A stretch of 64,000 nucleotides of DNA, taken from NCBI GenBank assembly GCA_022768945.1, contig JALEKY010000024.1:1-64000 (forward strand), given 5' to 3'. Below, in pieces: positions 39,013-61,310 of this stretch (position 1 is the stretch's first letter; each line of letters opens with the position of its first letter). A model generated the notes under the pieces. That model worked only from the letters and a program-made list of their open reading frames with translations, did not search any database and was not told where the DNA came from. This DNA comes from Christensenellaceae bacterium (GTDB lineage: Bacteria > Bacillota > Clostridia > Christensenellales > Borkfalkiaceae). The translations under genes and the position numbers were made by a program.

Positions 39013-40935
39013 ATGAAAGAATGCGCTTGCACAGAACAAAGCAGCCTTGGCGAGTACTGCTGCGGGTACGAATGTTTTCGCGGCAATATTCCATATGCCT
39101 TAAAGAAAAAAAGAGGCATCAGGTCACGCAGATATCGCCCGTTACATGTTAAAAAAGCAGATCACTTGTCCGAAACTAAGGAGTGTATGGACGGTAGTAT
39201 CGGGGAAATAGTAAACGAAGAGATAAAAGAAACTCTTTCCGCTACGGAGGAGGTAGCTTCGGAAAACGTCGCGGCTTCTTGCGAGGAAACGCCTGCGGCG
39301 GAAAGCCCGGAAACAGCCGAAGAAACGGCGGCAGAGGAACTTCCGATCGAACCGACCGAAGAGCAAACGGAAGAAGGAACTGTTTCCGAGGAAAATGCGG
39401 AAGAAGAAACCGAACAGGAAGAACTGCCCGAAGAGGAAGAAAAAGAACTTCCGGCAGAAGAGAAGGAAGAGCAACCCGAAGGACTTCCAGTAGAAGAGGA
39501 AAAAGAACTTTCCGAAGAGGAAATCCCGGAGGAAAAGACGGAAGAGGACTTCTCTGAACGTGAAGCTACGGTTACCGAAGATACGGAGGATAAGACTGAA
39601 GAACCGCTCGAAGAAACCGCAAATGAACAAACGGAGGCAGAGGAACTTCCGATCGAACCGACCGAAGAGCAAACGGAAGAAGGAACTGTTTCCGAGGAAA
39701 ATGCGGAAGAAGAAACCGAACAGGAAGAACTTCCCGTAGAAGAGGAAAAAGAACTTCCGGCAGAAGAGAAGGAAGAGCAGCCCGAGAAGGCTTCCGAAGA
39801 ACTCGAGATAGAAGAAAACGAAGAAGATCAGGACGCGTTCTCTTGCGTAGAGGACGAAATACTGCTTGACGTTCCGGACGACGAAGAACCCGAAGAAGTT
39901 TCGGTAGAATTGCCCGCGGGCGAAGCGACCGAGGAAGAAGAAACGGAGCCTTCCGTCGAAATAGAACTTCCGGCAGAAGAAGAGGAAAAAGAAGAGACTA
40001 AAGAAGAGCCGGAAATCGTTATCAACGACGAAGAAGCGGCCGAAAACGCGGAAGAACCTGCAAAAACGGAAGAAAACGTTCAGGAGCCGCTGACCGAAGT
40101 ATCCGAGGAAATCGGAGAATCGGAAGCGAAAACCGGAGATACCGCGGCAGTCGAAGAGACGACTGAAACGAAAGCGGACGAAAAGACAGAAGAAGCAACC
40201 GAGACTGCAGAAGCAGCCGCAGAAGAAAGTTCCGAAGTTCCCGTGGAAGAGCCCGCAGAGGAAAGTCAGGAAGTTTCCGCCGAGGAAGCCGCGATGTTTA
40301 AAGAAGAGGAAGAGCCGGAAGAGAAACCCGATCCGGACGCCGCTTCGAAAGAAGAACATAAGCAGATGGTTGAAAAACTGCTTACCACGCTTGCCATTCC
40401 GCCGAGAAGAAAATACATTGCTCCTCCGTCGCTCGCGTCCGAGTCGGACGACGAATACACGGTGGAAGTTCTTACCAAGAGCGAAATGAAAGAGAACGTT
40501 CAGTCCGTTTTCAAAGCTCTCGTAAAAGAAGGCGTGAAACTCGGTTATCTCGATAAGTATGACGGACTTTCTCCCGCCGAAATCAAAGAGGAATACGAAG
40601 GCGAACTCGTTTACGAAGTTGCCGAGCAGGAACTCAGAAAAATCGCTCTCGGAATTTCCGAGGTAAAGGGCGAAAAGAAAGTAAGCGTTTACGCGTTCAG
40701 TTGGGACGGTACTGATCTGCATCATCTCGGTTATCTCAACGAACCTGAAAAAGCGGAAAAAGTTATCCCGTTTATCGAAAACAAAGATGACTACATATTC
40801 AATATTTGCGGCATAATAACAGGCGGCAAATATAAATCGGTCGAAAAGGACGCGAGCGGTAAAATCAAAATTAAAAACTGCGAAGGTCTTCCTTACGGAA
40901 TCGAACTCGATATAACCGTTTATAAAAAGGCTTAA
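39013..40935 (+). CDS. Glu-rich repeat protein with Cys-rich N-terminus and globular C-terminus
   Basis: AAGGAGAA RBS; N-terminal MKECACTEQSSLGEYCCGYECF; about 400 aa acidic repeats; last about 180 aa normal complexity. Confidence 0.75.
   Translation: MKECACTEQSSLGEYCCGYECFRGNIPYALKKKRGIRSRRYRPLHVKKADHLSETKECMDGSIGEIVNEEIKETLSATEEVASENVAASCEETPAAESPETAEETAAEELPIEPTEEQTEEGTVSEENAEEETEQEELPEEEEKELPAEEKEEQPEGLPVEEEKELSEEEIPEEKTEEDFSEREATVTEDTEDKTEEPLEETANEQTEAEELPIEPTEEQTEEGTVSEENAEEETEQEELPVEEEKELPAEEKEEQPEKASEELEIEENEEDQDAFSCVEDEILLDVPDDEEPEEVSVELPAGEATEEEETEPSVEIELPAEEEEKEETKEEPEIVINDEEAAENAEEPAKTEENVQEPLTEVSEEIGESEAKTGDTAAVEETTETKADEKTEEATETAEAAAEESSEVPVEEPAEESQEVSAEEAAMFKEEEEPEEKPDPDAASKEEHKQMVEKLLTTLAIPPRRKYIAPPSLASESDDEYTVEVLTKSEMKENVQSVFKALVKEGVKLGYLDKYDGLSPAEIKEEYEGELVYEVAEQELRKIALGISEVKGEKKVSVYAFSWDGTDLHHLGYLNEPEKAEKVIPFIENKDDYIFNICGIITGGKYKSVEKDASGKIKIKNCEGLPYGIELDITVYKKA
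39331..39480 (+). repeat. 150-bp intragenic direct repeat, copy 1
   Basis: AEELPIEPTEEQTEEGTVSEENAEEETEQEELPEEEEKELPAEEKEEQPE. Confidence 0.9.
39637..39786 (+). repeat. 150-bp intragenic direct repeat, copy 2
   Basis: Same as copy 1 except about six bases, counted by eye. Confidence 0.9.
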
Positions 40936-42772: not shown

Positions 42773-42921
42773 AAAATATGAGTAAAGCGATTAAACGGAT
42801 ATAATTTTTCTGTTTTTTTATCGATATTTTTATACCGTGAAATATACGATATTATGTCGTATTTTGACAAAAGTGTAAAAATATAACATCAATAAACGAA
42901 ATAATCAAATTTTTTAAAACG

Positions 42922-42957
42922 GAGCGTTAAGTTTTTACGGCTTAACGCTTTTTTTTG
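42922..42957 (+). terminator. Rho-independent terminator
   Basis: GCGTTAAG...CTTAACGC then TTTTTTTT. Confidence 0.9.
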
Positions 42958-43221: not shown

Positions 43222-44172
43222 ATGAGTAAAGTTACCATTATCGGCACAGGTTCGGTCGGCGCGTCTATTTGTTATGCGATGTCCCTTAAGGGAACGGCTT
43301 CCGAAATCGTTTTAATCGATATCAACGAGAAGAAAGCGGAAGGCGAAGCACTTGACATCAGACAGGGTATGCCCTACAGCCCGCAGAATAAAATCTATGC
43401 GGGTACTTACGAAGACGCTGTCGGTTCGGACGTAGTAGTTATTACTTCGGGCATTCCGAGAAAAGCCGGCATGAGCAGACTCGATCTAGCTCAGGTCAAC
43501 GTAGACATTATGAAGTCTATCGGACCTCAGATCGTAAAATACGCTCCGGACGCGGTTTATATTATCGTTTCCAACCCCGTAGACGTTCTTACCTACGTGT
43601 TCAGAAAGATAACCGGACTCCCGGAAGAAAGAGTTATCGGTACCGGTACTCTTCTCGATACCGCGAGACTCAGAACTTCGCTCGCTTTCAACTATAATAT
43701 CAGCATGAAGAACGTTCACGCGTACGTATTCGGTGAACACGGCGACTCTCAGTTCGTTCCCTGGTCGATTTCGAATATTTCGTCCATTCCCGTTAAAGAG
43801 TATTCCAAAAGAATAGTCGGCAAGACTAACGTTCGCGAAGAGAACGTAGACTTCGACGCTATGGCTGAATTCGTTAAAAAATCCGGCGGCTGGATAATCG
43901 AAAGAAAGGGCGCGACCTTCTACGGTATCGCCGCTTGCGTAACGCACATCGTAGGCTGCATTTTCTCGGGCGTAGAAATCGCTCTTACCGTTTCCACCCT
44001 TCAGCACGGCGAATACAAAGGCGTAGACGACGTATGCCTCTCCACGCTCGCGCTCATCGGCAGACACGGCGTTTGCGGCAAATTGGCTGTTCCTCTTACC
44101 GAGGAAGAAGAAGCTAAACTTCGCAACAGCGCGGAAAAACTTAAAGAAGTTATCAATTCCGTCAAATATTGA
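43222..44172 (+). CDS. mdh: LDH-like malate dehydrogenase (predicted)
   Basis: IGTGSVGASICYA Rossmann; SGIPRKAGMSRLDL has Arg at the specificity position; GEHGDSQF catalytic His; followed by fumC. Confidence 0.75.
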   Translation: MSKVTIIGTGSVGASICYAMSLKGTASEIVLIDINEKKAEGEALDIRQGMPYSPQNKIYAGTYEDAVGSDVVVITSGIPRKAGMSRLDLAQVNVDIMKSIGPQIVKYAPDAVYIIVSNPVDVLTYVFRKITGLPEERVIGTGTLLDTARLRTSLAFNYNISMKNVHAYVFGEHGDSQFVPWSISNISSIPVKEYSKRIVGKTNVREENVDFDAMAEFVKKSGGWIIERKGATFYGIAACVTHIVGCIFSGVEIALTVSTLQHGEYKGVDDVCLSTLALIGRHGVCGKLAVPLTEEEEAKLRNSAEKLKEVINSVKY

Positions 44173-44220
44173 TTTTCATACAATAACACAATATAAGACT
44201 CATAAAACAGGAGAAAAAAT

Positions 44221-45585
44221 ATGGATTATCGCATCGAGAAAGATTCGATGGGCGAAATGAAGGTGCCCGCCGACAAATATTGGGCGGCGCAAACTCAGAG
44301 AAGCTATGAAAACTTCCGTATCGGCGGAGAGATTATGCCTCGCGAAATAACCCACGCTTTCGGCATTTTAAAGAAAGCCGCGGCTATGGCTAACTTCGCG
44401 CTCGGCAAGATGGACGAGGAAAAGAAAAACGCCATCTGCGCCGCGTGCGACGAGGTTATTTCCGGCAAATTATACGATAATTTCCCCCTTGTGGTATGGC
44501 AGACGGGCAGCGGCACTCAGTCGAACATGAACGCGAACGAAGTCATCGCCAACAGAGGAAACGAAATAGTAGGGAAGAAGCTTCTTCACCCGAACGACCA
44601 CGTCAATATGAGTCAAAGCTCTAACGACACGTTCCCCACGGCAATGCACATTTCCGCCGTACTTATTATAGAGGACAAGCTTTTCCCCGCGATGGACAAG
44701 CTTATCGATACTTTCAAAAGACTCGAAAAGGAAAACGAGGGTATCGTTAAGAGCGGAAGAACTCACCTTCAGGACGCAACGCCGATTGCTTTCTCTCAGG
44801 AAATCAGCGGCTGGCGCAATATGATAGAAAAAACGAAGGATATGCTCGAAAAGGCTCTTCCCGGGCTTAAAGAGCTCGCTCTCGGCGGCACTGCCGTCGG
44901 AACGGGACTCAACTCGCCTAAGGGTTGGGGAGAGGAAGTTGCAAAGCAGGTTTCTCTTTTAACGGGCAAACAATTCGTTACGGCAGAGAATAAATTTCAC
45001 GCTCTTACTTCCAAGGACGATATAGTATTCGCTCACGGCGCACTCAAAGCTCTCGCTTGCAACCTTATGAAGATTGCTAATGACGTAAGATGGCTCGCAA
45101 GCGGTCCTCGCGACGGGCTCGGTGAAATCTTCATTCCGGAAAACGAACCGGGCAGCTCTATAATGCCGGGTAAAGTAAACCCCACTCAGTGCGAATCTAT
45201 GACGATGGTTGCCGTTCAGGTAATTGGTAACGACGTTGCCGTAGGTATGGCGGCTTCGCAAGGCAACTTCGAACTCAACGTATTCATGCCTGTTTGTATT
45301 TATAATTTCTTGCAATCGGCAAGACTGCTTGCGGACGGAATCAACTCGTTTAACGATAAATGCGTTTCCGGAATTCGTGCAAACAGAGAAAAAATGGATC
45401 ACAACCTTCACAATTCTCTTATGCTCGTTACCGCGCTCAATCCTTATATAGGATACGACAACGCGGCTAAAACGGCAAAGACGGCGTATAAAGAAAACAT
45501 CTCTTTAAAGGAAGCTTGCGTTAAGCTCGGTTTTCTTACCGCCGAGGAGTTCGATAAGGTGTTCCACCCCGAACAGATGATTTGA
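44221..45585 (+). CDS. fumC: Class II fumarate hydratase
   Basis: MGEMKVPADKYWAAQTQRS...SGTQSNMNANEVI...GSSIMPGKVNPTQCE. Confidence 0.95.
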   Translation: MDYRIEKDSMGEMKVPADKYWAAQTQRSYENFRIGGEIMPREITHAFGILKKAAAMANFALGKMDEEKKNAICAACDEVISGKLYDNFPLVVWQTGSGTQSNMNANEVIANRGNEIVGKKLLHPNDHVNMSQSSNDTFPTAMHISAVLIIEDKLFPAMDKLIDTFKRLEKENEGIVKSGRTHLQDATPIAFSQEISGWRNMIEKTKDMLEKALPGLKELALGGTAVGTGLNSPKGWGEEVAKQVSLLTGKQFVTAENKFHALTSKDDIVFAHGALKALACNLMKIANDVRWLASGPRDGLGEIFIPENEPGSSIMPGKVNPTQCESMTMVAVQVIGNDVAVGMAASQGNFELNVFMPVCIYNFLQSARLLADGINSFNDKCVSGIRANREKMDHNLHNSLMLVTALNPYIGYDNAAKTAKTAYKENISLKEACVKLGFLTAEEFDKVFHPEQMI

Positions 45586-45590
45586 CGTTC

Positions 45591-45623
45591 TTATCCCGCA
45601 GCGTTTTTTTCGTTGCGGGATAA
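45591..45623 (+). other. Strong intercistronic hairpin without external U-tract
   Basis: TTATCCCGCAGCG-TTTTTTT-CGTTGCGGGATAA, 13 bp with one GU. Confidence 0.7.
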
Positions 45624-45664
45624 CGCACACTAATACGAATTATTTGAGGTAATAGTTTTACATT

Positions 45665-46444
45665 ATGAAATACTCATATTTTCCCGGGTGTACCCTTAAA
45701 AACAAAGCGGTAGAACTCGACGAAAGCGCAAAAAAATGCGCAAAAGCGCTCGGCGCGGAGCTTGAAGAAATAGACGAATGGCAGTGTTGCGGAGGCGTTT
45801 ATACGACGGCTAAGGACGAAATAGCCACAAAGCTCGCTTCGGTAAGGGCGCTTGCAAACACGAGAGAAAAGAACCAAAAACTCGTTACGATCTGCTCCGC
45901 TTGCCATAACGTTTTAAAACGCGTGAACGACGATATGAGGAACAACGAATACGTCCGCACCCGCGTTAACAACTACAACGCGCAAGAGGGCAAAGAGCCT
46001 TACGGCGGCGAAACGGAAGTTATTCATTATCTCGAACTTCTTCGCGACGAAATAGGCTTCGAAAACATTAAAAAAGCGGTCGTTAATCCTATCAATTTAA
46101 AGGTGGGAACGTATTACGGCTGTTTGCTTCTTCGCCCGAGCTCGGTTATGCGGATGGATAATCCCGAAAACCCGACGATACTCGAAGATTTCGTTAAAGC
46201 GATAGGCGGCACGCCTGTCGTATCTGCGCTCAGAAACGAGTGCTGCGGCGCGTATACAGCCGTTACGGATAAGCAAATAGCAAAGACGAGGAGCGAACTA
46301 ATTACTTCTTCCTACGCTAAGAAAGGCGCTGAAGTAATAGTTACGGCTTGCCCGCTTTGTATGTATAATTTGAAAGAAAACGGCGGCAAAGAAGTCGAAA
46401 TCGTGTATTTTACCGAACTTCTTGCAAAGGCGTTGGGAGTGTAA
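45665..46444 (+). CDS. hdrB: Heterodisulfide reductase subunit B-like (two CCG domains)
   Basis: WQCCGG...CSACH and ECCGAY...CPLC. Confidence 0.88.
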   Translation: MKYSYFPGCTLKNKAVELDESAKKCAKALGAELEEIDEWQCCGGVYTTAKDEIATKLASVRALANTREKNQKLVTICSACHNVLKRVNDDMRNNEYVRTRVNNYNAQEGKEPYGGETEVIHYLELLRDEIGFENIKKAVVNPINLKVGTYYGCLLLRPSSVMRMDNPENPTILEDFVKAIGGTPVVSALRNECCGAYTAVTDKQIAKTRSELITSSYAKKGAEVIVTACPLCMYNLKENGGKEVEIVYFTELLAKALGV

Positions 46445-46447
46445 GCG

Positions 46448-46834
46448 ATGGATTATAATACTTTAAGCGAAAATATCAAATACATAAGCGACGTCAATAC
46501 GAAAAAATGTATGCGCTGCGGCAAATGCACCGCTACTTGCCCGAATTTCAAGGAAATGGACATTCACCCGCATCAGTTCGTTTATTTTATAGAAACGGGC
46601 AGACTGGACAGATTGCTTAAATCGCAGTCGGCGTACAAATGCCTTACCTGTTTTGCCTGCGTGGAGAGATGTCCGAGACAAGTCGAACCCGCAAAGCTGA
46701 TAGAAGCGGTCAGACTTACGCTCGTAAGGAAACAAGGCGAAAATTACTTAAAACCGGACGACGTTCCGTGCACGCTCGACGAAGAAATGCCTCAGCAGGC
46801 TATCGTATCGGCGTTCAGAAAGTATACCAAATAA
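46448..46834 (+). CDS. hdrC: Heterodisulfide reductase subunit C-like ferredoxin
   Basis: CMRCGKCTATCP and CLTCFACVERCP. Confidence 0.85.
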   Translation: MDYNTLSENIKYISDVNTKKCMRCGKCTATCPNFKEMDIHPHQFVYFIETGRLDRLLKSQSAYKCLTCFACVERCPRQVEPAKLIEAVRLTLVRKQGENYLKPDDVPCTLDEEMPQQAIVSAFRKYTK

Positions 46835-46918
46835 TTCCGAAAAAATGAAAGCGAGTATGGAAAAACGCCGTATTTCGCACGTTTTAAACAGATTTATATA
46901 TCAAGAGAGGACAAAGAA

Positions 46919-48904
46919 TTGCAAAGGATAGGCGTATTTATTTGTTGGTGCGGCTCGAACATAGCCGCCACGGTAGACGTGAAAAAAGTCGCTGAAGCGG
47001 CTTTGAACGAACCGGGCGTAGTGTTCTCTGCCGATTATCAGTATATGTGTTCGCAAAGCGGACAACAGCTGATGAAAGACGCGATCAAGGAGAAAGGACT
47101 TACCGGCATAGTGGTATGTTCGTGTTCCCCGAGAATGCACGAAACAACGTTCAGAAAAGCTGCGGAAAGCTGCGGCATCAACCCGTACATGGTTGAAATA
47201 GCGAACATAAGAGAACATTGTTCGTGGATACATAAAGATATAAAAGAGGCTACCGAAAAAGCTATAATACTTATGCGTACCGCGGTTGCGAAAGTCAATC
47301 TCGACAATTCGCTCACGGCAGGCACGAGCGACGTAGTTAAACGCGCTCTCGTAATCGGCGGCGGTATTGCGGGTATTCAATCCGCGCTCGATATAGCCGA
47401 AGCGGGATATGAAGTAGACATAGTCGAAAAAGCGCCTACTATCGGAGGGAAGATGGCGCAGCTCGACAAGACTTTCCCGACGCTCGACTGCGCGGCTTGT
47501 ATTCTCACGCCGAAAATGGTTGAGGCTGCAAGCAACGAAAAAATCAAAATTTATTCTTTCTCGGAAGTTGAAAGCGTAAAAGGCTTCGTAGGAAACTTTA
47601 CGGCTAAAATAAAGAAAAAGGCAAGATTCGTAGACGAAAATCTCTGCACCGGTTGCGGACTTTGTACGGAAAAATGCCCTTCGAGAAAGACTCCCAACGA
47701 ATTTAACCGCGGCATGAACACCCGTTCGGCGGTATATATTCCGTTTGCTCAGGCGGTTCCGAAGCTCGCTATAATCGATCCTACCGCATGCTTGCATTTC
47801 AAAACCGGCAAGTGCGGTCTTTGCGAGAGAAACTGCTCGGCAAAGGCAATCAAATTCGACCAGCAGGACGAATATATCGAACAGAAATACGGCGCAATCG
47901 TAGTTGCTACCGGTTTCGACACGATTAAACTCGATAACTTCGGTGAATACGGTTACAACGAAAATCCGGATGTAATCACTTCGCTCGAGCTCGAAAGACT
48001 CATGAATGCGGCAGGTCCTACCGGCGGCGTGCTTCTCCGTCCTTCGGATAAACAGCATCCTAAGAAGATCGTATTCGTTCAGTGCGTCGGTTCGAGAGGT
48101 TTGCGCCCCTGCGATAAGCCTTACTGCTCGAAGATTTGCTGTATGTATACGGCTAAACACTCCATGCTTATCCGCGAAAAATATCCCGATACCGAAGTTA
48201 CCGTATTCTATATCGACGTAAGAACGCCGGGTAAGAATTTCGACGAATTCTATCGCAGAGCGGTCGAACAGTACGGCGTTAACTATATCAAAGGTCAGGT
48301 AGGAAAAGTAGTCGAAAACGACGGTAAACTCACCGTTTACGGTTCAGACCTTCTTATGAACGAACAAGTCGTGATCGACGCCGACCTCGTGGTTCTCGCA
48401 ACCGCAATCGAACCCGACAAGACGGCTAAGAGCGTGGCTACCATGCTTACCGCAAGCATAGACACGAACAACTTCTTCACCGAAGCTCACCCCAAGCTTC
48501 GCCCTGTAGAATCTCCTACGGCGGGCGTATTCCTTTCGGGCGTATGTCAGGGACCTAAGGATATTCCCGAAACGGTAGCTCAGGCAAGCGCGGCGGCTGT
48601 TAAGGTAGTAGGTTTGTTATCCAAGGATAAACTTACCTGCAATCCGTGCGTAGCGCATTCGGACGAAATGCTCTGCAACGGCTGCTCTTCGTGCGAGAAA
48701 GTTTGCCCTTACGGCGCAATAACTTATATAAACAAAGAAGTCAACGACCACGGCAAGAGAGAGGTAAGAAGACTTGCAAGCGTAAACGAAGCGGTTTGTC
48801 AGGGCTGCGGCGCATGCACGGTTGCTTGTCCTTCCGGCGCAATGGATTTGAAAGGCTTTACGAATAAACAGATTATGGCGGAGGTTGACGCGATATGCAA
48901 GTAG
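46919..48904 (+). CDS. hdrA: Heterodisulfide reductase subunit A-like FAD/Fe-S protein
   Basis: VIGGGIAGIQSALDIAEAGYEV, GGKMAQLDKTFPTLDCAACILTPKM, C-terminal CNGCSSCEKVCP/CQGCGACTVACP; TTG start. Confidence 0.9.
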   Translation: MQRIGVFICWCGSNIAATVDVKKVAEAALNEPGVVFSADYQYMCSQSGQQLMKDAIKEKGLTGIVVCSCSPRMHETTFRKAAESCGINPYMVEIANIREHCSWIHKDIKEATEKAIILMRTAVAKVNLDNSLTAGTSDVVKRALVIGGGIAGIQSALDIAEAGYEVDIVEKAPTIGGKMAQLDKTFPTLDCAACILTPKMVEAASNEKIKIYSFSEVESVKGFVGNFTAKIKKKARFVDENLCTGCGLCTEKCPSRKTPNEFNRGMNTRSAVYIPFAQAVPKLAIIDPTACLHFKTGKCGLCERNCSAKAIKFDQQDEYIEQKYGAIVVATGFDTIKLDNFGEYGYNENPDVITSLELERLMNAAGPTGGVLLRPSDKQHPKKIVFVQCVGSRGLRPCDKPYCSKICCMYTAKHSMLIREKYPDTEVTVFYIDVRTPGKNFDEFYRRAVEQYGVNYIKGQVGKVVENDGKLTVYGSDLLMNEQVVIDADLVVLATAIEPDKTAKSVATMLTASIDTNNFFTEAHPKLRPVESPTAGVFLSGVCQGPKDIPETVAQASAAAVKVVGLLSKDKLTCNPCVAHSDEMLCNGCSSCEKVCPYGAITYINKEVNDHGKREVRRLASVNEAVCQGCGACTVACPSGAMDLKGFTNKQIMAEVDAICK

Positions 48905-49350
48905 AAAACGGACAATTTAAACCGACTATCGTGGCGTTTTGTTGTAACTGGTGTTCCTATGCGGGTGCAGACCTTGCGGGAACGGGCAGAATGCAATATC
49001 CCGCCGAAGTAAAAATTATAAGAGTACCCTGCTCGTGCAGAGTTAATCCCATGTTCATTTTGCGCGCGTTTCAGCGCGGAGCGGACGGCGTAATCCTTTG
49101 CGGTTGCCATCCCGGGGATTGCCACTACACGACGGGCAACTACTATGCGAGAAGACGTATGACGATGCTCTTCGATTTCCTCGACTATCTCGGAATAGAA
49201 AAAGAAAGAACGAGAGTGGAGTGGGTATCCGCGGCGGAAGGCGCAAGATTCGCGTCCGTCATGAACGACTTCGTTAAAAAGGTAACCGAACTCGGTCCCA
49301 ACAAGAGAATAACAGACCTCCGTTGCAAACCGGAAAAGGAGGGTGAATAA
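48895..49350 (+). CDS. MvhD/FlxD-like [2Fe-2S] subunit
   Basis: VAFCCNWCSYAGADLAGTGRMQYP...VPCSCRV...CGCHPGDCHY. Confidence 0.88.
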   Translation: MQVENGQFKPTIVAFCCNWCSYAGADLAGTGRMQYPAEVKIIRVPCSCRVNPMFILRAFQRGADGVILCGCHPGDCHYTTGNYYARRRMTMLFDFLDYLGIEKERTRVEWVSAAEGARFASVMNDFVKKVTELGPNKRITDLRCKPEKEGE

Positions 49351-50333
49351 TGCAGAAAGTAGTCGATATTATGAAAAAGAGGGCTCTTCAGCTTCTCGAA
49401 CAGGGAACGGTAAACCGCGTTTTAGGCTGGAAAAACGGTGATTTCACCTACGACCAGACGCCCGCCGTTTTCAATTCGAAAGAAGAAGTAAACGAGCTTG
49501 TATATAATGATTTCAGCGCGGCAAATCTTTCCAAATATCTCATAGCGGAAACCAAAAAAGAAGGCAAAATTCTTGCGTTCTTAAAGCCCTGCGATACATA
49601 CAGCTTCAATCAGCTTATAAAAGAACACCGCATTAATCGCGAGAACGTTTACGTAATCGGCGTCGAGTGTCAGGGTAAGGTGGACGTCGAAAAGGTCAGA
49701 GCTCTCGGAGCGAAAGGCGTTACCGGAGTCGAAGTCGACGGAGAAACCGTTACCGCGCACACCCTTTACGGAGATAAGACGTTTACCAAAGAAAGCGTTC
49801 TTATGGAAAAATGCCTCGCTTGCAAGGGTAAAACCCATATGGCTTACGACGAACTTATCATCGTAAACCCTGTAGAGGATAAGAAGAACGACAGATTTAA
49901 GCAGGTAGAAGAGCTTGAAAACATGACTCCCGACGAAAGATTCGCTTTCTGGCAAGGTCAGCTTTCCAAGTGCATAAGATGCAACGCCTGCAGAAACGTT
50001 TGCCCGGCGTGCAGCTGCCTTAAATGCGTGTTCGACAATCCGAATTCCGGTGTTGCAAGCAAAGCGGTGCCGGATACTTTCGAAGAACAACTCTTCCACG
50101 TAATCCGCGCGTTCCACGTTGCCGGCAGATGTACCGACTGCGGCGAATGCTCGAGAGTTTGCCCGCAGAATATTCCTCTTCACCTTCTCAACAGAAAGTT
50201 CATCAAGGATATAAATAAGTTCTACGGCGAATATCAGGCGGGTGCCGATACCGAAACCCGCGCTCCGCTCACAAACTTCACTAAAGAAGACGTAGAGCCG
50301 AGCGTCATCTCCGACAAAGGAGGTAAAGCATAA
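49350..50333 (+). CDS. FlxC-like 4Fe-4S subunit
   Basis: CIRCNACRNVCPACSC and CTDCGECSRVCP; FLKPCDTYSFNQLIKEHRI N-terminal region. Confidence 0.75.
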   Translation: MQKVVDIMKKRALQLLEQGTVNRVLGWKNGDFTYDQTPAVFNSKEEVNELVYNDFSAANLSKYLIAETKKEGKILAFLKPCDTYSFNQLIKEHRINRENVYVIGVECQGKVDVEKVRALGAKGVTGVEVDGETVTAHTLYGDKTFTKESVLMEKCLACKGKTHMAYDELIIVNPVEDKKNDRFKQVEELENMTPDERFAFWQGQLSKCIRCNACRNVCPACSCLKCVFDNPNSGVASKAVPDTFEEQLFHVIRAFHVAGRCTDCGECSRVCPQNIPLHLLNRKFIKDINKFYGEYQAGADTETRAPLTNFTKEDVEPSVISDKGGKA

Positions 50334-51373
50334 TGTTGAAAATCAATAAAAGCAACCTCGAAAAGCTCTTTAACGCTATATCGGAGAAGCAGAATTTATA
50401 CATTCCCTGCAACGTAAACGGCAAGACCAATTACGCTGTTTACGGCGAGGGCGCACAGGTTGACCTTGAAACTTTAAAGACGGTTAAATCTGCAAAGGAA
50501 GTATTCTTCCCTCAGTGCGAAGACATAGTTTCGTTCAAGAGAAACGGTAAAGCCGTAGAGGTTATCGACGTAAGAAAGGAAAGCGAAGATTTCACCGTTT
50601 TCGGCGTTCGCGCATGCGATCTTAAGAGTTTTGAAATTCTCGATACCGTATTCCTTTCCGAACCCGTAGATACGTATTATCAGACGAAGAGAGAACACGG
50701 AACGGTAGTAACTCTCGCTTGTAATTATCCCGAAGAATCCTGCTTCTGCCATACGTTCGGAATAAACGCTTCCGAGCCGAAAGGAGACGTTACTTGTTGG
50801 TTTGCAGGCGATTTCCTTTATTGGCAGGCTAATACAGAAAAGGGCTTAAATCTCACAAAAACCGTTGAATCCTTATTCGAAAAAGCTACGGCGAAAGACG
50901 AGAAAGAGGTTGAAACGGAAAAGAAAGAAATAGAAAAAAGAACGGAAAAACTTCCTCTTTACGACCTTACGACGGAAGGTTGGGGAAAGGACTCCGTACT
51001 TCTCGAAAAATTCAATTCGCCTCTTTGGCAGTCTCTTTCCGAGGCGTGCCTCGGCTGCGGCGCATGCACGTTCGTCTGCCCCACGTGTCAGTGTTACGAT
51101 ATTAAGGATTTCGATAAGGGACACGGCATACAGCGTTATCGTTGCTGGGACTCCTGCATGTACAACGACTTCACTATGATGGCCCACGGAACGCCCCGTC
51201 CCACGCAGATGCAGCGTTTCCGTCAGAGATTTATGCATAAGCTCGTATATTATCCTAAGAACAACGAAGGAACGTTCGGTTGCGTAGGTTGCGGCAGATG
51301 CGTAGAAAAATGCCCCATTCATATGAATATAACCAAGGTAATGAAAGCGTTCGGAGGAAAGAAAAATGACTAA
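50333..51373 (+). CDS. FlxB-like (HydB/AsrA-related) 4Fe-4S subunit
   Basis: VFGVRACDLKSFEILDTVFL, CLGCGACTFVCPTCQCYDI, CVGCGRCVEKCP. Confidence 0.8.
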   Translation: MLKINKSNLEKLFNAISEKQNLYIPCNVNGKTNYAVYGEGAQVDLETLKTVKSAKEVFFPQCEDIVSFKRNGKAVEVIDVRKESEDFTVFGVRACDLKSFEILDTVFLSEPVDTYYQTKREHGTVVTLACNYPEESCFCHTFGINASEPKGDVTCWFAGDFLYWQANTEKGLNLTKTVESLFEKATAKDEKEVETEKKEIEKRTEKLPLYDLTTEGWGKDSVLLEKFNSPLWQSLSEACLGCGACTFVCPTCQCYDIKDFDKGHGIQRYRCWDSCMYNDFTMMAHGTPRPTQMQRFRQRFMHKLVYYPKNNEGTFGCVGCGRCVEKCPIHMNITKVMKAFGGKKND

Positions 51374-52190
51374 TGACAGACTTATACCGGTGCCGGGCGT
51401 TATAACCGAAATAAGAAGGGATACTCCCGACGTAAAAACTTTCAGAGTAGTAGGGCGTGACGGTAAAAAACCGTTCGTCAACATACCCGGTCAATGCGCG
51501 ATGGTATCCGTACCTGGCGTAGGCGAATCCATGTTCTCCGTAACATCCTCGCCCGAAACTCCGTATATGGAGTTTTCCATTAAAAAATGCGGATGCGTTA
51601 CAGAATGGCTCCACTCTGCGGAAGTAGGCACCGAAATAACCGTAAGAGGACCTTTCGGAAACGGCTTCCCCGTCAATACCGAATTCAAAGGTAAAAACCT
51701 TGTATTCATTGCCGGAGGTATCGGTCTCGCTCCTCTTCGTTCGGTAATCAACTACGTAAGAGCGAACAGAGCCGATTACGGTAAGGTAACCGTCGTTTAC
51801 GGTTCGAGATCAAAAGACGACCTCGTCGATTTCGAAGAAATTAAGAACGAATGGGCTAACGAGAAAGATTTTACAGTATATCTGACAATCGACCGTCCGC
51901 AGGACACATGGGACGGACACGTAGGTTTCGTACCCGCATACGTAAAAGAGTTGAATCTCAGAACGAGTGACACCGTAATCCTCTGCGGTCCTCCGATAAT
52001 GATTAAGTTCACGCTTGCGGCTCTTATCGAACTCGGGTTTGAAAAAACTCAGGTTTACACCACTATGGAGCTTCGCATGAAATGCGGCATAGGCAAGTGC
52101 GGCAGATGCAACATAGGCGATAAATATGTCTGCAAGGACGGACCTGTTTTCCGTTGTGATCAGATAGACGAAATGCCTAACGAATATTAA
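51366..52190 (+). CDS. FlxA-like (HydG/AsrB-related) FAD/NAD(P)H-binding subunit
   Basis: GPFGNGFPV, FIAGGIGLAPLRSVI, CGPPIMIKFT, C-terminal CGIGKCGRCNIG...C 2Fe-2S motif. Confidence 0.85.
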   Translation: MTNDRLIPVPGVITEIRRDTPDVKTFRVVGRDGKKPFVNIPGQCAMVSVPGVGESMFSVTSSPETPYMEFSIKKCGCVTEWLHSAEVGTEITVRGPFGNGFPVNTEFKGKNLVFIAGGIGLAPLRSVINYVRANRADYGKVTVVYGSRSKDDLVDFEEIKNEWANEKDFTVYLTIDRPQDTWDGHVGFVPAYVKELNLRTSDTVILCGPPIMIKFTLAALIELGFEKTQVYTTMELRMKCGIGKCGRCNIGDKYVCKDGPVFRCDQIDEMPNEY

Positions 52191-52229
52191 TACGCTCGAA
52201 CAGATTGTTTTGGAGGTCACTATTTTAAA

Positions 52230-52904
52230 ATGGAAAAAAATGTAGATATTTTTCTTTACGGAAAAAAATACAGCGTACCCGAAAGTCTTACAATAATGGG
52301 CGCTATGGAATATGCGGGGTATCGTCTTGTTCGCGGTTGCGGTTGCAGAAACGGCTTTTGCGGCGCGTGCGCTACGATATACAGAATAAAGGGCAAACAG
52401 GAGCTTCACGCCTGCCTCGCCTGCCAGACTCAGGTTCAGGAGGGAATGTACATAGCTACGCTCCCGTTCTTCCCGCTCGTAAAGCAGGTTTACGATATCA
52501 ATAAAATCAAGCCCGAACAGCAGATTATGATGCAGCTTTACCCCGAAATCTACGCTTGCGTAGGTTGTAACGCCTGCACCAAGGCTTGCACGCAGGGGCT
52601 CAACGTAATGCAGTACATCGCATACGCTCAGCGCGGCGACTTCAAAAAGTGCGCGGAGGAATCTTTCGACTGCGTTATGTGCGGAGTATGTTCTTCGCGT
52701 TGTCCCGCGGGCATTTCGCATCCGCAGGTCGCTCTTCTCGCCCGCAGACTTAACGGTAAGTATCTCGAACCCAAGAGCGAACACCTTCTCGAGAGAGTAA
52801 AGGAAATCGCAGAGGGCGGCTATGATAAACTCATCGAGGACATTATGAATAAGCCTTTGGACGAGATTAAAGAGCTTTACAATACAAGAGAAATCGAAAA
52901 ATAA
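52230..52904 (+). CDS. Fumarate reductase/TfrB-type iron-sulfur subunit (no CCG domain)
   Basis: CGCRNGFCGACATIYRIKGKQELHACLAC 2Fe-2S; CVGCNACTKACTQG and CVMCGVCSSRCPAG. Confidence 0.75.
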   Translation: MEKNVDIFLYGKKYSVPESLTIMGAMEYAGYRLVRGCGCRNGFCGACATIYRIKGKQELHACLACQTQVQEGMYIATLPFFPLVKQVYDINKIKPEQQIMMQLYPEIYACVGCNACTKACTQGLNVMQYIAYAQRGDFKKCAEESFDCVMCGVCSSRCPAGISHPQVALLARRLNGKYLEPKSEHLLERVKEIAEGGYDKLIEDIMNKPLDEIKELYNTREIEK

Positions 52905-52915
52905 GGAGAAGCACT

Positions 52916-54514
52916 ATGTATACACCGGAAATGCTTGAATCTATAAAGAAAGTTGAAGCAACGAGAGGCGAACGCATAGGCGCAAACCTCCGCAGAATGA
53001 CCGCCGACGAAAAGGACGCGGTTTTAAAGGCTTTTCACCCCGACTATAAGGAAAGCGCGTTCACCACTTTGAAAGTCGGAGCGAATAAGGGCGAAAAAGT
53101 TCCTCTCGAACTCGAAGCCACGTTAGAGGGTAAAAGCCGTATTCTCGGCAAAAAAATCAATCTCGATAAAATCGATTACGACGTAGACGTTCTCGTTATC
53201 GGAGGCGGCGGAGCAGGTTCTTCGGCTGCAATCGAGGCGAACGAAGGCGGCGCGAACGTTATGATGGTAACAAAGCTCCGTATAGGCGACGCCAACACGA
53301 TGATGGCAGAAGGCGGCATTCAGGCTGCAGATAAACCTAACGACAGCCCCGCTCAGCACTATCTCGACGCGTTCGGCGGCGGACACTTCGCAGCAAAGCC
53401 CGAGCTTTTGAGAAAGCTCGTTATGGACGGTCCCGAATGTATCGAATGGCTCAACGAGCTCGGCGTAGAGTTCGACAAAGCTCCTGACGGAACGATGATT
53501 ACCACGCACGGCGGCGGCACTTCGAGAAAGAGAATGCACGCGGCTAAGGACTATTCGGGCGCGGAAATCATGAGAACGCTTCGCGACGAAGTTTTGAACC
53601 GCGGTATTCCCGTAGTAGACTTTACTTCCGCTATAGAGCTTATCAAGGACGATGAAGGCAAAATTGCCGGAGCCGTTCTCCTCAATATGGAAACCAACGA
53701 AATTCTTATCGCGCGCGCAAAAACGGTTATAATCGCAACGGGCGGCGCGGGAAGAATGCACTATCAGGGCTTCCCGACATCCAACCATTACGGCGCAACG
53801 GCGGACGGGCTCGTTCTCGCTTATCGCGCGGGTGCAAAGCTCCTTTATCAGGATACTTTGCAGTATCACCCGACCGGCGCGGCTTTCCCGTCTCAGATAT
53901 TCGGCGCGCTTGTTACCGAAAAGGTTCGTTCTCTCGGCGCGCAACTCGTAAACAGCGAGGGCGAAGCATTTATGAACCCGCTCGAAACTCGTGACGTTTC
54001 CGCTTCTTCCATTATCAGAGAATGCACGGAAAGAGGCAAGGGCGTTAAGACTTCTCAGGGCGAAGGCGTATGGCTCGATACCCCGATGATAGACATTATC
54101 GGAGGAGAAGGCACAATTGAAAAGCGCATTCCCGCAATGATGAGAATGTTCGGCAAATACGGCATAGATATAAGAAAACAGCCTATTTTGGTTTATCCTA
54201 CGCTTCACTATCAGAACGGCGGTATAGATATAACCGTGGACGGCATGAGCTGCATTCCCAACCTTTACGTCGCAGGCGAAGCGGTAGGGGGAATACACGG
54301 CAGAAACAGACTTATGGGCAATTCTCTTCTCGACGTAGTCGTATTCGGCAGAAACGCGGGACAGCACGCTGCGGAAAAATGCAAAACCGTAAAACTCGGC
54401 AAGCTCACGCTCAAACACGTTGAAGAGTTCGAGAAAGAAGCCGCAAAGGCTGTTCCCGGCGAACGTAAAATTTCGCCTATACTTCTTCCCGATTACACAA
54501 GGAAGGATATGTAA
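52916..54514 (+). CDS. frdA: Fumarate reductase-type flavoprotein subunit
   Basis: VIGGGGAGSSAAIEA, MMAEGGIQAA, QYHPTGAAFPSQIFGALVTEKVRSLG, LHYQNGGIDI, HGRNRLMGNSLLD. Confidence 0.85.
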   Translation: MYTPEMLESIKKVEATRGERIGANLRRMTADEKDAVLKAFHPDYKESAFTTLKVGANKGEKVPLELEATLEGKSRILGKKINLDKIDYDVDVLVIGGGGAGSSAAIEANEGGANVMMVTKLRIGDANTMMAEGGIQAADKPNDSPAQHYLDAFGGGHFAAKPELLRKLVMDGPECIEWLNELGVEFDKAPDGTMITTHGGGTSRKRMHAAKDYSGAEIMRTLRDEVLNRGIPVVDFTSAIELIKDDEGKIAGAVLLNMETNEILIARAKTVIIATGGAGRMHYQGFPTSNHYGATADGLVLAYRAGAKLLYQDTLQYHPTGAAFPSQIFGALVTEKVRSLGAQLVNSEGEAFMNPLETRDVSASSIIRECTERGKGVKTSQGEGVWLDTPMIDIIGGEGTIEKRIPAMMRMFGKYGIDIRKQPILVYPTLHYQNGGIDITVDGMSCIPNLYVAGEAVGGIHGRNRLMGNSLLDVVVFGRNAGQHAAEKCKTVKLGKLTLKHVEEFEKEAAKAVPGERKISPILLPDYTRKDM

Positions 54515-54544
54515 TTAAAAATTAAGAGGAAATATAACATTATA

Positions 54545-55807
54545 ATGAATAGTTTACTTGCATTCAGCGACGTGTTGTCTATAAGCGGAATAACCGCGGT
54601 AATTTGCGGCTGTTTCCTTATAGCGACAATCGGCTATCTTTTGGGGAGGATAACCGTAAAAGGCGTTTCGCTCGGCACGGCAGGGGTGTTCCTTGTTGCA
54701 ATCGGGTTCGGATTCCTTTTCGCTATTCCGGGACTTAAAGACCTCGACTTTTTAAAGAACTTCTATATACCCGATTCGTCCGCAACCGCTTATAAGTATT
54801 ACAACGAAATCGACAGTTTAGGTTTGATTTTGTTCGTTACCGCGGTCGGATACATAGCCGGTCCCACATTTTTCAGAAATCTGAAAAAGAACGCCACAAG
54901 CTACGTTCTTCTCGGCGCAATCATCATTTTATCCGGCGTTCTCGTAGCTGTCGGATTTGCGTTTTTGCCGGATATAGGTTCCGGCTTCAGCGCGGGCATT
55001 CTCTCGGGCGCGCTTACTTCCACCCCCGCGTTTTCCGCGGCGGAGGAAGCCGCAAAAGCCGCCGGACAGGACGTTGCAATGGTCGCTCTCGGTCACGCAA
55101 TCGCATATCCTTTCGGCGTTGTAGGCGTTGTTCTCTTCGTTCAGCTCGTTCCTAAAATAATGAAGGCGAACAAAGAAGAGGAAATCGCAAAAATGCTTTC
55201 CGTTTCCACGGGCGAAGAAAAGGCGGAAGAGAAAAAGCTCTTCAGTATCGACGAGTTCGGTCTTGCCGCTTTCGGCTTGGCTGTCGTGCTCGGCATAATT
55301 CTCGGTAAACTCACCGTAACTATCGGTTCGTTGAAGTTTAACCTCGGTACCACCGGCGGTCCGCTTATCGTAGCTTTGATTTTCGGTCACTTCGGAAGAA
55401 TAGGCAAAATCTCTCTCAAAGTTCCCGAACATACACTTAAAGTGTTCAGAGAATTCGGTCTTATGCTCTTCCTTATCGGCGCGGGCGTAAGAGGCGGCGT
55501 AAGCCTTCTCGAAAAAATTCTCGCCGGCAACTTCGATCCGATGCTTATCCTTTGGGGATTCATAGCCGGCGCGATTATGACCGTCGTTCCGATGATAATC
55601 GGTTTCTTCTTTGCGAAGAACGTTCTGAAGCTTCCTTTGTTCAACAACCTCGGTTCGATCACCGGCGGTATGACGTCTACTCCGGCTCTCGGTTCGCTCT
55701 GTCAGGTAGCCGGTACTGATAACGTTGCAGGCGCGTATGCGGCAACCTATCCTATCGCTTTGATACTTATAGTCATTGCGTCGAATCTTATAGTCACGTT
55801 GATATAG
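54545..55807 (+). CDS. AspT/YidE/YbjL-type transporter, candidate C4-dicarboxylate exporter
   Basis: Two homologous hydrophobic halves (YIAGPTFFRNL...SGALTSTPAF / LMLFLIGAGVRGG...GGMTSTPALG). Confidence 0.75.
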   Translation: MNSLLAFSDVLSISGITAVICGCFLIATIGYLLGRITVKGVSLGTAGVFLVAIGFGFLFAIPGLKDLDFLKNFYIPDSSATAYKYYNEIDSLGLILFVTAVGYIAGPTFFRNLKKNATSYVLLGAIIILSGVLVAVGFAFLPDIGSGFSAGILSGALTSTPAFSAAEEAAKAAGQDVAMVALGHAIAYPFGVVGVVLFVQLVPKIMKANKEEEIAKMLSVSTGEEKAEEKKLFSIDEFGLAAFGLAVVLGIILGKLTVTIGSLKFNLGTTGGPLIVALIFGHFGRIGKISLKVPEHTLKVFREFGLMLFLIGAGVRGGVSLLEKILAGNFDPMLILWGFIAGAIMTVVPMIIGFFFAKNVLKLPLFNNLGSITGGMTSTPALGSLCQVAGTDNVAGAYAATYPIALILIVIASNLIVTLI

Positions 55808-56046: not shown

Positions 56047-57084
56047 ATGGAAAAGGTAAGAATTGCTTTAATCGGTTCCGGCAGGGCGGGAATGATCCAT
56101 GCTCGCAATTTTGCGGGAAGGGTGTCTTTTTGCACTCTTACTGCAGTATGCGACGCTTTTCCCGAGGCTGCGGTCGCCGCGGCTAAAGAACTCGGAGTCG
56201 AAAGATACGAAACAGATTACGAGAAGATTATTTCGGACGAAAATATCGACGCCGTAGTTATCGCCACACCGACAAAGTATCACTGCGAGATAGCCGTAAA
56301 AGCGGCAAAGGCTGGTAAACACATTCTCTGTGAAAAGCCTATGGCAATGACCGTTGACGAGTGCGATTTGATGTACAGAACCGCTAAGGAATGCGGCGTC
56401 GTTCTTCAAATAGGTTTTATGAGAAGGTTCGACGCGTCTTTTATCGCGGCAAAAAAGATGGTAGACGAGGGCAAAATAGGCGACGTGGTTATGGTTCGCT
56501 CGAACACGCGCGGACCGAGTATTCCGAAACCTTGGATGTACGATATTTCAAAGAGCAACGGACCGCTTGCCGAAGTAAACAGCCACGATATAGATACGCT
56601 CAGATGGTTCACCGGAAGCGACTTTAAAACCGTTTACGCCACTGCGGGGAATTTCCGTTGTCCGGACGCGAAAAATGAGTTCCCGGATTTTTACGACAAC
56701 GTAACGCTTAACGCTAAGTTCGAAAACGGTTGCCTCGGAATAATCGACGGAGCTCAGGGCGTTTTGTACGGATACGACGCACGCTGCGAAATTCTCGGCA
56801 CTAAAGGTTGCATATATCTCGGCAACACCAAAGAAAACTCGGTAACTCTTTGTACTTCGGATATGCAAAAGAGCGAAGAATACGTAAACAGTTGGAGGAA
56901 CCTTTTTACAGACGCATATCTTGCGGAAGACCGTGATTTCGTTGAAACGATACTCGAAGGCAGAGAGCCTAAAGTAAACGGTTACGACGGCAAAATGGCT
57001 GTTTTAACGGTAAACGCGGGCAATTTATCTATAAAAGAAAACAAAGTAGTAGAAATAAACAAAGACAGTATTTTCGTTCGTTGA
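56047..57084 (+). CDS. Gfo/Idh/MocA-family oxidoreductase
   Basis: ALIGSGRAGMIHARNF...CEKPMAMTVDECD...EVNSHDIDTLRWF. Confidence 0.9.
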   Translation: MEKVRIALIGSGRAGMIHARNFAGRVSFCTLTAVCDAFPEAAVAAAKELGVERYETDYEKIISDENIDAVVIATPTKYHCEIAVKAAKAGKHILCEKPMAMTVDECDLMYRTAKECGVVLQIGFMRRFDASFIAAKKMVDEGKIGDVVMVRSNTRGPSIPKPWMYDISKSNGPLAEVNSHDIDTLRWFTGSDFKTVYATAGNFRCPDAKNEFPDFYDNVTLNAKFENGCLGIIDGAQGVLYGYDARCEILGTKGCIYLGNTKENSVTLCTSDMQKSEEYVNSWRNLFTDAYLAEDRDFVETILEGREPKVNGYDGKMAVLTVNAGNLSIKENKVVEINKDSIFVR

Positions 57085-57108
57085 ATTTAAACGAAAAAAG
57101 GGAGTAAT

Positions 57109-58143
57109 ATGTTAGCAGCAAGAATGTACGGCGCGAACGATCTTCGCGTAGAAGAAATTCCCGTTCCCGAAGTAGGAGACGGAGAAGTTTTAATAAAAAT
57201 CAAAGCGGCCGCGGTATGCGGAACGGACGTGAGAATGCTTTCTTTCGGCGCAAGCGGAATAGACGAGAGCAATCCTCGCGTTTTAGGGCACGAATTTGCC
57301 GGTATAATCGATAAAGTCGGCAAAAACGTAAAAGGATACAAGGTGGGCGACAGAGTTGCCGTAGCGCCGAATTTCGGCTGCGGTATCTGCTCTCAGTGCA
57401 TAAAGGGCAACGGACATTTGTGCGCCGATTACAGAGCGACGGGTATCAATACGGACGGCGGATTTGCCGAATACTGTCTTATCCCGGAAGACGCGGTGAG
57501 AGGGGGCAATATATGTTTGCTTCAGGACGACGTTTCGTTCGAAGAGGGCGCGATAAACGAGCCTCTTTCGTGCGTATATAACGGCTTCGAGCATGCTTCC
57601 GTTCATCCCGGCGACGTAGTGCTTGTCGTAGGCGCGGGGCCTATAGGCATAATGCACTGCAACCTTGCGCTTATGGCGGGCGCGGTCGTATGCCTTAACG
57701 ACGTTTCGGTGGAAAGACTTGAAAACGCAAAGAAGATTTTCCCGAAGTTGAACATCGTATCGGGTAACCCCGAGGAAACCGTCATGAAGCTTTCCGGCAA
57801 CGCGGGTGCGGACGTCGTTATAACGGCTTGCCCCGTTCCTTCCGTTCAGGTACAGGCGCTTGAGCTTGCCGGCATTGGGGGAAGGGTTATATTCTTTGGC
57901 GGAATACCCGCGGGCAAGGAACCCGTAGGCATAAATACCAACCTGATTCATTACAAACAGCTGATCGTTTCGGGAACTACCAGGGCAAGTCTTTCTCAAT
58001 ACAGAAAAACTCTCGATTTCGTTTCGAAAAAGGTGCTTGACGTTAAGCCGCTTATAACGAATTATTTTACTTTGTCCGAAATAGACAAAGCTTTCGATTA
58101 CGCAAAGCGCGGCGTCGGTTATAAAAACGTAATTAAGTTATGA
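57109..58143 (+). CDS. Zinc-dependent alcohol/polyol dehydrogenase (MDR)
   Basis: GHEFAGIIDKVGKNVKGYKVGDRV, CGICSQCIKGNGHLC, VVGAGPIGI. Confidence 0.9.
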   Translation: MLAARMYGANDLRVEEIPVPEVGDGEVLIKIKAAAVCGTDVRMLSFGASGIDESNPRVLGHEFAGIIDKVGKNVKGYKVGDRVAVAPNFGCGICSQCIKGNGHLCADYRATGINTDGGFAEYCLIPEDAVRGGNICLLQDDVSFEEGAINEPLSCVYNGFEHASVHPGDVVLVVGAGPIGIMHCNLALMAGAVVCLNDVSVERLENAKKIFPKLNIVSGNPEETVMKLSGNAGADVVITACPVPSVQVQALELAGIGGRVIFFGGIPAGKEPVGINTNLIHYKQLIVSGTTRASLSQYRKTLDFVSKKVLDVKPLITNYFTLSEIDKAFDYAKRGVGYKNVIKL

Positions 58144-59642
58144 AAAAACGGTTTCCTTTGTTCGTCGGCGCGGATATAGGCACGCAAGGAACGAAAAGCG
58201 TCGTTTGCGACGTCGACGGCAATATTATCGGAGAGGGATTTGCTCCTTCTTCTCTCGTATATTCGGATAACGGCGGTGTATGGGAAGCCGCCGAGGGTAT
58301 ACTTGCCGGAGTCGTTGCTTCTTTAAAGAAAGCCGTATCCGTCGCCGGCGTAAATCCGAGAGACGTAGCCGCTTTGAGTTTCGATTCGCAGATGGCGGGA
58401 CTTATGGCGATAGATAAAGATTTCAACGCCGTTTTGCCGCTCGATTCCTGGCTCGACGAAAGGTGCGCGCCGTATACGGACGAATTGAGGGAAAAACTCG
58501 GAGACGACGCGATTTTAAAAAGCGGCGGACAGTTCGTGCATTCGCATGCTTCGAGAATGTTGCGGCTTAAAAGGGAATGCCCCGAGCTATACGAAAAAAC
58601 GGCAAAGTTCATTCAGCCGAATGCCTTCGTCGCAGGGAAAATCTGCGATTTAAAGGCGGAAAAAGCGTTTATCGATTACACGTTTTTGCATTTTAACGTG
58701 TTTTCGGATAATCTAAACAAACGTATAGACGGCGATAAACTCGCTTTATTAGGTATTTCCGAAGATAAAATGCCGAAAATCGTTTCTCCTTTCGACGAAG
58801 CAGGGAAGACGAGTAAGACGTTCGAAGAAGAAACGGGTATCTCGGAAGGTACGCCGGTATTTGCAGGTTGCGGAGATACCGCGGCTTCCGCGCTCGGCTC
58901 CGGCATTACGAGAAAAGGTCTTGCGTACGATGTAGCGGGTACGGCTTCCGTATTTGCCTGTTGCACGGAGAAATTCGAGCCGGACGTAAAGAATAAAACG
59001 CTTCTTTACGCGCGCAGCGCGATAGACGGATTGTATACTCCGCTCTCCTACGTGTCGGGCGGGGGATTGTGTCTGAAGTGGTTTTCGGAGATTACGGGAG
59101 CCGGATACGACGTTCTTGACAAAGAGGCGGAAAACGCTAAAGCCGCAGAAGAGGGATTGTTCTTTATTCCGCATTTTTCGGGCAGATCGTTTCCTCTTGA
59201 CGACGGTATGCGCGGCGGATTTGTCGGAATAACGCAAAAAACCACGCGCGGCGCGATGTACCGCGCAATAATGGAAGCGTTGGCTTTCGAATATAGGATT
59301 TATTCGGATATACTCGCCTCGTGCGGGGCAATAGATAATATATCTGCCGTTTACGGGGTAGGCGGCGGCGCGAAAAGTCGGGTGTTTTCGAAAATAAAGG
59401 CAGATATTTTAAACGCAGAGTATCGCGCTTTGAAAATTGCGGATTCCGCTCCGCGCGCGGCGGCTGTTATAGCGGCTTCGGGCGCCGGATTTTTAAACGA
59501 GCCGATAGCGGAGTTTTTTTCGCCGGAGAGAATAAAGGCGGAAAGTTTTATGCCCGACGGAAAAAGGTACTCGGGGCTCGAAAAAGAATATTTAAATGCC
59601 GCGGAGTGTTCTTACAGACAAAAGCGGTTTGAAAGGAGATAA
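58140..59642 (+). CDS. FGGY-family carbohydrate kinase (xylulokinase-like)
   Basis: GADIGTQGTKSVVCD...AGCGDTAASALGSG...VYGVGGGAKSRVFSKIKADIL. Confidence 0.88.
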   Translation: MKKRFPLFVGADIGTQGTKSVVCDVDGNIIGEGFAPSSLVYSDNGGVWEAAEGILAGVVASLKKAVSVAGVNPRDVAALSFDSQMAGLMAIDKDFNAVLPLDSWLDERCAPYTDELREKLGDDAILKSGGQFVHSHASRMLRLKRECPELYEKTAKFIQPNAFVAGKICDLKAEKAFIDYTFLHFNVFSDNLNKRIDGDKLALLGISEDKMPKIVSPFDEAGKTSKTFEEETGISEGTPVFAGCGDTAASALGSGITRKGLAYDVAGTASVFACCTEKFEPDVKNKTLLYARSAIDGLYTPLSYVSGGGLCLKWFSEITGAGYDVLDKEAENAKAAEEGLFFIPHFSGRSFPLDDGMRGGFVGITQKTTRGAMYRAIMEALAFEYRIYSDILASCGAIDNISAVYGVGGGAKSRVFSKIKADILNAEYRALKIADSAPRAAAVIAASGAGFLNEPIAEFFSPERIKAESFMPDGKRYSGLEKEYLNAAECSYRQKRFERR

Positions 59643-59644
59643 AA

Positions 59645-61256: not shown

Positions 61257-61310
61257 CGCGCAGACGAACGAAAAACGTCAATTCCGAGTGCTGTTACAAA
61301 GAGGTTAAAT

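Follow-up and report, generated by a model that had tools for sequence, protein, structure and literature searches.

A lactate-dehydrogenase-like protein at the head of a succinate-type operon in a Christensenellaceae bacterium is most probably a malate dehydrogenase

The gene at 43222-44172, here called mdh, most probably (probability about 0.92) encodes an NAD-linked L-malate dehydrogenase (MDH) on a lactate dehydrogenase (LDH)-like scaffold, which would act as the first enzyme of a succinate-forming branch. This is the best explanation of the data as a whole. The window (the whole stretch that was analyzed, 64,000 nucleotides of contig JALEKY010000024.1) was originally predicted to encode an MDH here rather than an LDH. 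That call has become much stronger, since the gene heads an operon leading from oxaloacetate to succinate, this gene order recurs in many genera, and all sampled members of the clade have Arg102, against Gln102 in the canonical LDHs sampled. The features are as follows:

42921..42951, + strand: terminator-like hairpin with a stem of 13 pairs and a T-run, lying after the M50-peptidase gene and before mdh (a pattern match only; in total such hairpins were no more numerous than in shuffled sequence)
43222..44172, + strand: mdh, predicted LDH-like malate dehydrogenase (intermediate-group MalDH), 316 aa; Arg80 = position 102, Thr232 = position 246
43459..43461, + strand: codon of Arg80 (Eventoff position 102, the substrate-specificity arginine), converted from the ORF start at 43222
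44221..45585, + strand: fumC, class II fumarate hydratase, 454 aa (TIGR00979, fumC_II equivalog, 738 bits, cut-off 665)
45665..46444, + strand: hdrB-like subunit with two CCG domains (PF02754 in two stretches; TIGR03288 and SdhE models; aligned to solved HdrB)
46448..46834, + strand: hdrC-like 2x[4Fe-4S] subunit (TIGR03290, 58 bits; Fer4 domains)
46919..48904, + strand: hdrA, HdrA2-type flavoprotein, expected to carry the bifurcating FAD (NF040770, 799 bits, profile positions 1-641)
48895..49350, + strand: flxD / MvhD-type delta subunit (PF02662, 189 bits)
49350..50333, + strand: Fe-S subunit in the FlxC position (4Fe-4S domains; position conserved in relatives)
50333..51373, + strand: Fe-S subunit in the FlxB position, AsrA / sulfhydrogenase beta-like (PF17179, NF040829)
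51366..52190, + strand: flxA, FAD/NAD-binding subunit, expected NADH entry point (PF00175, PF10418, PRK08345)
52230..52904, + strand: frdB-like Fe-S subunit of a soluble fumarate reductase, 2Fe-2S + 4Fe-4S (PF13510, Fer4 domains, TfrB N-terminal match; phylogenetic profile)
52916..54514, + strand: frdA-like flavoprotein of fumarate reductase (TfrA, 339 bits; alignment to E. coli SdhA)
54545..55807, + strand: AspT/YidE-type transporter, candidate dicarboxylate exporter (PF06826, TIGR01625)

The mdh reading frame is complete, with an ATG start and without internal stop. The domain search matched both PF00056 and PF02866 and showed the LDH/MDH domains to be intact; many solved LDHs and MDHs match strongly, which leaves no doubt about the fold. 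The motifs GTGTLLDTARLR, KGATFYGIA and SGIPRKAGMSRLDL were found exactly as first quoted, and the domain matches and the TIGR01771 model confirm the LDH-like similarity. The best PDB match was 1y6j, presumably a C. thermocellum protein, which is named L-lactate dehydrogenase and has Arg at position 102. Eventoff numbers, assigned from the alignment with relatives and solved enzymes and from motif anchors, gave Q68, R102 (Arg80), R109, D168, R171, H195, Q199, T246 and I250, so that the arginine said to replace the Gln of LDH is at position 102 by alignment. The catalytic residues R109, D168, R171 and H195 are all kept, and Q199 departs from the pattern of LDHs as well as from that of type-3 MalDHs. 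Arg102 was fixed in 13/13 sequences of alignment A1 and in 122/122 relatives of at least 49% identity, and is thus not due to chance. The original prediction had set the loop against the NQKPGETR of LDH; the arginine is real, but the AGANRKPGETR loop is also common among clostridial relatives, 1y6j included. According to Wilks et al. (1988), as cited in PMC3268733, Q102R alone turns an LDH into an MDH and Arg102 selects dicarboxylic substrates.

Thr246 and Ile250 are as in LDHs and, with the overall similarity, count against the MDH reading. The threonine of KGAT had moreover been taken as an LDH-like sign that specificity may be mixed. This argument did not hold, as Thr246 was present in 168/168 MDHs and LDHs compared and is thus not diagnostic; mixed specificity is possible, but it is not indicated by Thr246 alone.

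The annotation models were then compared. The mdh product passed the NCBIfam L-LDH equivalog TIGR01771 (323.8 bits, cut-off 303.55) and the PRK00066 LDH model (344.4, cut-off 339), barely passed a malate dehydrogenase subfamily model (285.7, cut-off 283) and failed the bacterial-MDH model TIGR01763 (225 bits, cut-off 352). These results indicated that TIGR01771 does not separate LDH from this type of MDH, and automatic annotation would mislead, as was anticipated; the L-LDH label is wrong or at least misleading. The residues agree with this. A canonical L-LDH has Gln at 102, with D/E at 199 and H68, where the mdh product has Arg80, Q199 and Q68, and all 35 Q102 sequences were other genes. Of the type-3 MalDH set (R102, M199, A/S246, P250) it shares R102 only, with Q199, T246 and I250 in the other places, and none of the 147 class genomes sampled contained a protein passing TIGR01763. 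The combination of R102 with T246 is present, by which the protein fits the published "intermediate" MalDHs.

Twelve consecutive genes on the + strand, overlapping or separated by short gaps, span 43222-55807 in the order mdh-fumC-hdrBCA-flxDCBA-frdBA-transporter; they include the fumarase, hdrBCA, flxDCBA, frdBA and transporter genes of a Flx-Hdr succinate operon. The predicted fumC lies directly downstream of mdh, 48 bases away. From mdh to the transporter the genes look like one transcription unit, and the hairpin upstream of mdh may hint that mdh starts it; no RNA elements were found upstream of mdh. Both CCG motifs of HdrB, the motifs for two non-cubane Fe-S clusters, could be read directly in the sequence. 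FrdA has the dicarboxylate-site motifs of E. coli SdhA (QYHPTG, RDV, PTLHY and GRNRL), with Asn in place of the covalent-FAD His in the same alignment, and no membrane-anchor genes were found beside frdA.

Two regions flank the operon. The 640-aa protein encoded at 39013-40935 contains a long repetitive stretch that is Glu-rich and highly acidic, and the opposite strand has 527 open codons across it; part of this protein is kept in the genus, where it lies upstream of mdh and the M50-peptidase gene. After the operon, a separate sugar-catabolic cluster at 56047-61847 (judged from translations only) contains genes for a Gfo/Idh-like oxidoreductase, a zinc-type alcohol dehydrogenase, a sugar kinase, a deoC-like aldolase, a DeoR-type regulator and a sugar-isomerase-like protein.

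The order mdh-(fumC)-hdrBCA-flxDCBA-frdBA was kept in the genus, the family, other Clostridia and Treponema. Among the 80 named loci (rumen and gut Clostridia, Oscillospiraceae, Lachnospiraceae, Petroclostridium and Treponema) and 29 class loci compared, mdh was the first gene of the same cluster in most, a second form of the cluster lacked fumC, and in L109 and L118 mdh was placed after frdA. The named relatives came mostly from animal guts. Across the 122 relatives of at least 49% identity, the signature was R102 (122/122), T246 (122/122), Q68 (121/122) and S199 (111/122). Many loci being incomplete, hdr/flx/frd genes were on the fetched DNA in at least 72 of the 122, and fumC and/or hdr/flx/frd genes lay beside at least 100; 22 had no operon genes on the fetched DNA, which was counted against the MDH reading. 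No fumC or hdr/flx/frd neighbors were seen for 46 other superfamily genes sampled (35 Q102 and 11 R102), and the sampled Q102 LDHs had another signature, mostly H68/Q102/E199.

Furthermore, the same 293 class genomes were searched with the MDH and with the FrdB of the operon. Of the 33 genomes in which the MDH search gave a match of at least 50% identity, 32 also had FrdB, versus 11/260 others; the Fisher p of about 3e-32 is not corrected for relatedness and, as the genomes are related, overstates their independence. The association spans many families. Taken with R102 and the operon, this co-occurrence points to a preference for malate and oxaloacetate.

The cluster form without fumC was also found in a same-genus assembly (G003, 56% complete), where mdh is followed directly by hdrB between 9982 and 11794 of locus L023; the sole full-length homologue found elsewhere is a distant aspartase-like protein (38%), and fumC may have been replaced or lost there. 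Other mdh-hdrBCA loci without fumC are L045, L087, L092, L093, L099, L102-L104, L107, L111, L112, L119, L120, L131, L133, L139, L140, L142, L143, L146, L147 and L149, and a good part of the named ones are Lachnospiraceae. Among the upstream ORFs of L102, no class I fumarase near mdh was recognized by eye.

A superfamily phylogeny, proposed earlier as a check, was built by quick search from 81 sequences. The succinate-operon-type MDHs and a few unlinked relatives formed one clade (SH-aLRT 99), with the Q102 LDHs outside it. The R102 sequences other than type 3 formed one group (SH-aLRT 81), in which the malic-enzyme-linked R102 type is likely the sister of the succinate-operon-type clade. A tree constrained to a single Q102 clade was not rejected (p-AU 0.71) and fitted slightly better by likelihood. 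There is accordingly no need to read R102 as a reversion from LDH, or the protein as an LDH that re-acquired Arg102. The tree is in line with the published proposal that the intermediate MalDH group gave rise to LDHs, with T246 before Q102 (PMC9486893).

The assembly of the window's genome is 79.6% complete, and the absences in it are provisional. The mdh gene was the single LDH/MDH gene found; the search for a separate canonical ldh that the original prediction proposed returned no canonical or other LDH in this genome and none in five same-genus assemblies (56-90% complete). ATP-PEPCK and an [FeFe] hydrogenase are present, while no malic enzyme and no RnfC over the cut-off were found. This gene set fits a route from PEP through oxaloacetate, malate and fumarate to succinate, with ferredoxin re-oxidized by the hydrogenase. 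Rnf was set aside as the ferredoxin outlet in view of the missing RnfC and the hydrogenase found instead. A malate-shunt role, for which no malic enzyme was found in the genome, was set aside too; it fits the other R102 clade. A second fumarase/aspartase-family gene (G000:C54:495-1850, 39% to FumC) probably encodes an aspartate ammonia-lyase, whose product could feed fumarate into the same fumarate reductase.

In the proposed mechanism, PEP carboxykinase would make oxaloacetate, which the MDH would mainly reduce with NADH to malate and NAD+, Arg102 pairing with the second carboxylate of oxaloacetate. FumC would then make fumarate, which soluble FrdAB would turn into succinate. The Flx, Hdr and Frd subunits presumably form a complex, in which electrons for FrdAB would pass from NADH through FlxA, FlxBC and FlxD to the HdrA flavin. 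From there one branch would lead through HdrC/HdrB to FrdB/FrdA, and the other might reduce ferredoxin by flavin-based electron bifurcation. Such bifurcation to ferredoxin was proposed for the Flx-Hdr and fumarate reductase of P. thermosuccinogenes (PMC7282089), and the coupling of FrdAB to ferredoxin is a hypothesis from the literature. We tentatively suggest that an LDH-like MalDH subgroup (Q68/R102/S199/T246) might be dedicated to, and perhaps channel malate into, a bifurcating soluble NADH:fumarate reductase in many gut Clostridia and Treponema, giving succinate and reduced ferredoxin without a membrane.

It is unlikely, although conceivable, that the protein is a bifunctional malate/lactate dehydrogenase which, with no canonical LDH in the genome, reduces oxaloacetate as well as pyruvate at physiological rates. 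Besides the lack of another LDH in the assemblies searched, this reading has in its favor the LDH-like T246 and I250 and the fact that pyruvate is also a substrate of some intermediate-group MalDHs with T246 (PMC9486893). In C. cellulolyticum, moreover, the loss of mdh atop the loss of ldh cut the residual lactate further, which the authors ascribed to overlapping specificity (PMC3268733). However, the universal T246 does not discriminate, the arginine at 102 does not vary, and the operon ties the gene to fumarate reduction. We found no published kinetics for the succinate-operon MDH clade, and some pyruvate activity of the window's MDH is conceivable.

An oxidative direction of the operon is quite improbable. 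The AspT-like carrier, encoded by the last gene, would import succinate or malate for oxidation to oxaloacetate, with Flx-Hdr reversed (confurcation), and MDH and fumarase are indeed reversible. Yet PEPCK is present, most named relatives come from animal guts, a soluble FrdAB without quinone anchor and with the His-to-Asn change at the covalent-FAD site favors reduction, and P. thermosuccinogenes, which has the counterpart operon, produces succinate. A true L-LDH in which Arg102 is a neutral or atypical substitution is very hard to credit, for although the two LDH cut-offs are passed and 1y6j bears the L-LDH name, that name is itself doubtful given the Arg102 of 1y6j and its place in the tree among genes next to malic enzyme, the whole sampled clade has R102, Q102R by itself is cited to convert LDH to MDH, and the operon is one of malate, fumarate and succinate.

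The preferred MDH reading implies a systematic annotation error: genome-based predictions would give such gut Clostridia lactate formation where succinate is more likely. Where family models fail to tell MDHs from LDHs, the surrounding operon can do so. That clostridial R102 proteins act as MDHs is already known, and the operon minus mdh has been published for P. thermosuccinogenes; in most cases this succinate operon opens with an MDH gene of its own.

The clostridial MDHs paired with malic enzyme (Ccel_0137, Cthe_0345) share the LDH-like scaffold and R102 with the window's MDH, and 1y6j and its group have the same T246 and I250. In the tree 1y6j groups with L166, whose next gene encodes malic enzyme, and this R102 type (H68/R102/Q199) stood beside malic enzyme in 3/3 members checked (L165, L166 and L170). 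1y6j is probably the product of Cthe_0345, since Cthe_0345/Cthe_0344 in C. thermocellum have the same arrangement as L166 (PMC3268733). Ccel_0137 (Arg81) is the primary MDH of C. cellulolyticum, as shown by mutant extracts, with some overlap toward lactate (PMC3268733). In contrast to this H68/Q199 group, the window's clade has Q68 and mostly S199 (Q199 in the window's MDH) and heads the Flx-Hdr-Frd operon; it is a separate supported clade, about 45% identical. The two clostridial MDH clades thus appear specialized, one for the malate shunt and one for succinate.

The intermediate-group MalDHs share the mixed R102 and T246 signature with the window's MDH, which falls near LDH in the tree, but M is mentioned for them at position 199, where the window's type has Q/S. 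MalDH type 3 (PDB sequences of Chloroflexus, 1guy, and Chlorobium, 1gv0) has R102 in a similar loop (PRKPGM), but M199, A246 and P250 instead of Q199, T246 and I250. The 'succinate operon' of the succinate producer P. thermosuccinogenes (Pseudoclostridium) comprises fumC/Flx-Hdr/Frd/transporter (PMC7282089); its genes CDQ83_RS03365-RS03315 (fumarase, Flx-Hdr at RS03360-30, two fumarate-reductase genes and a putative transporter) are the same list as 44221-55807, except that the published list begins at fumarase, whereas the window and most sampled relatives begin with mdh. Finally, FlxABCD-HdrABC of Desulfovibrio vulgaris (Ramos et al., 2015, as cited in PMC7282089) is the same seven-subunit NADH dehydrogenase/heterodisulfide-reductase set, which that citation ties to ethanol metabolism and which here would be tied to a soluble fumarate reductase.
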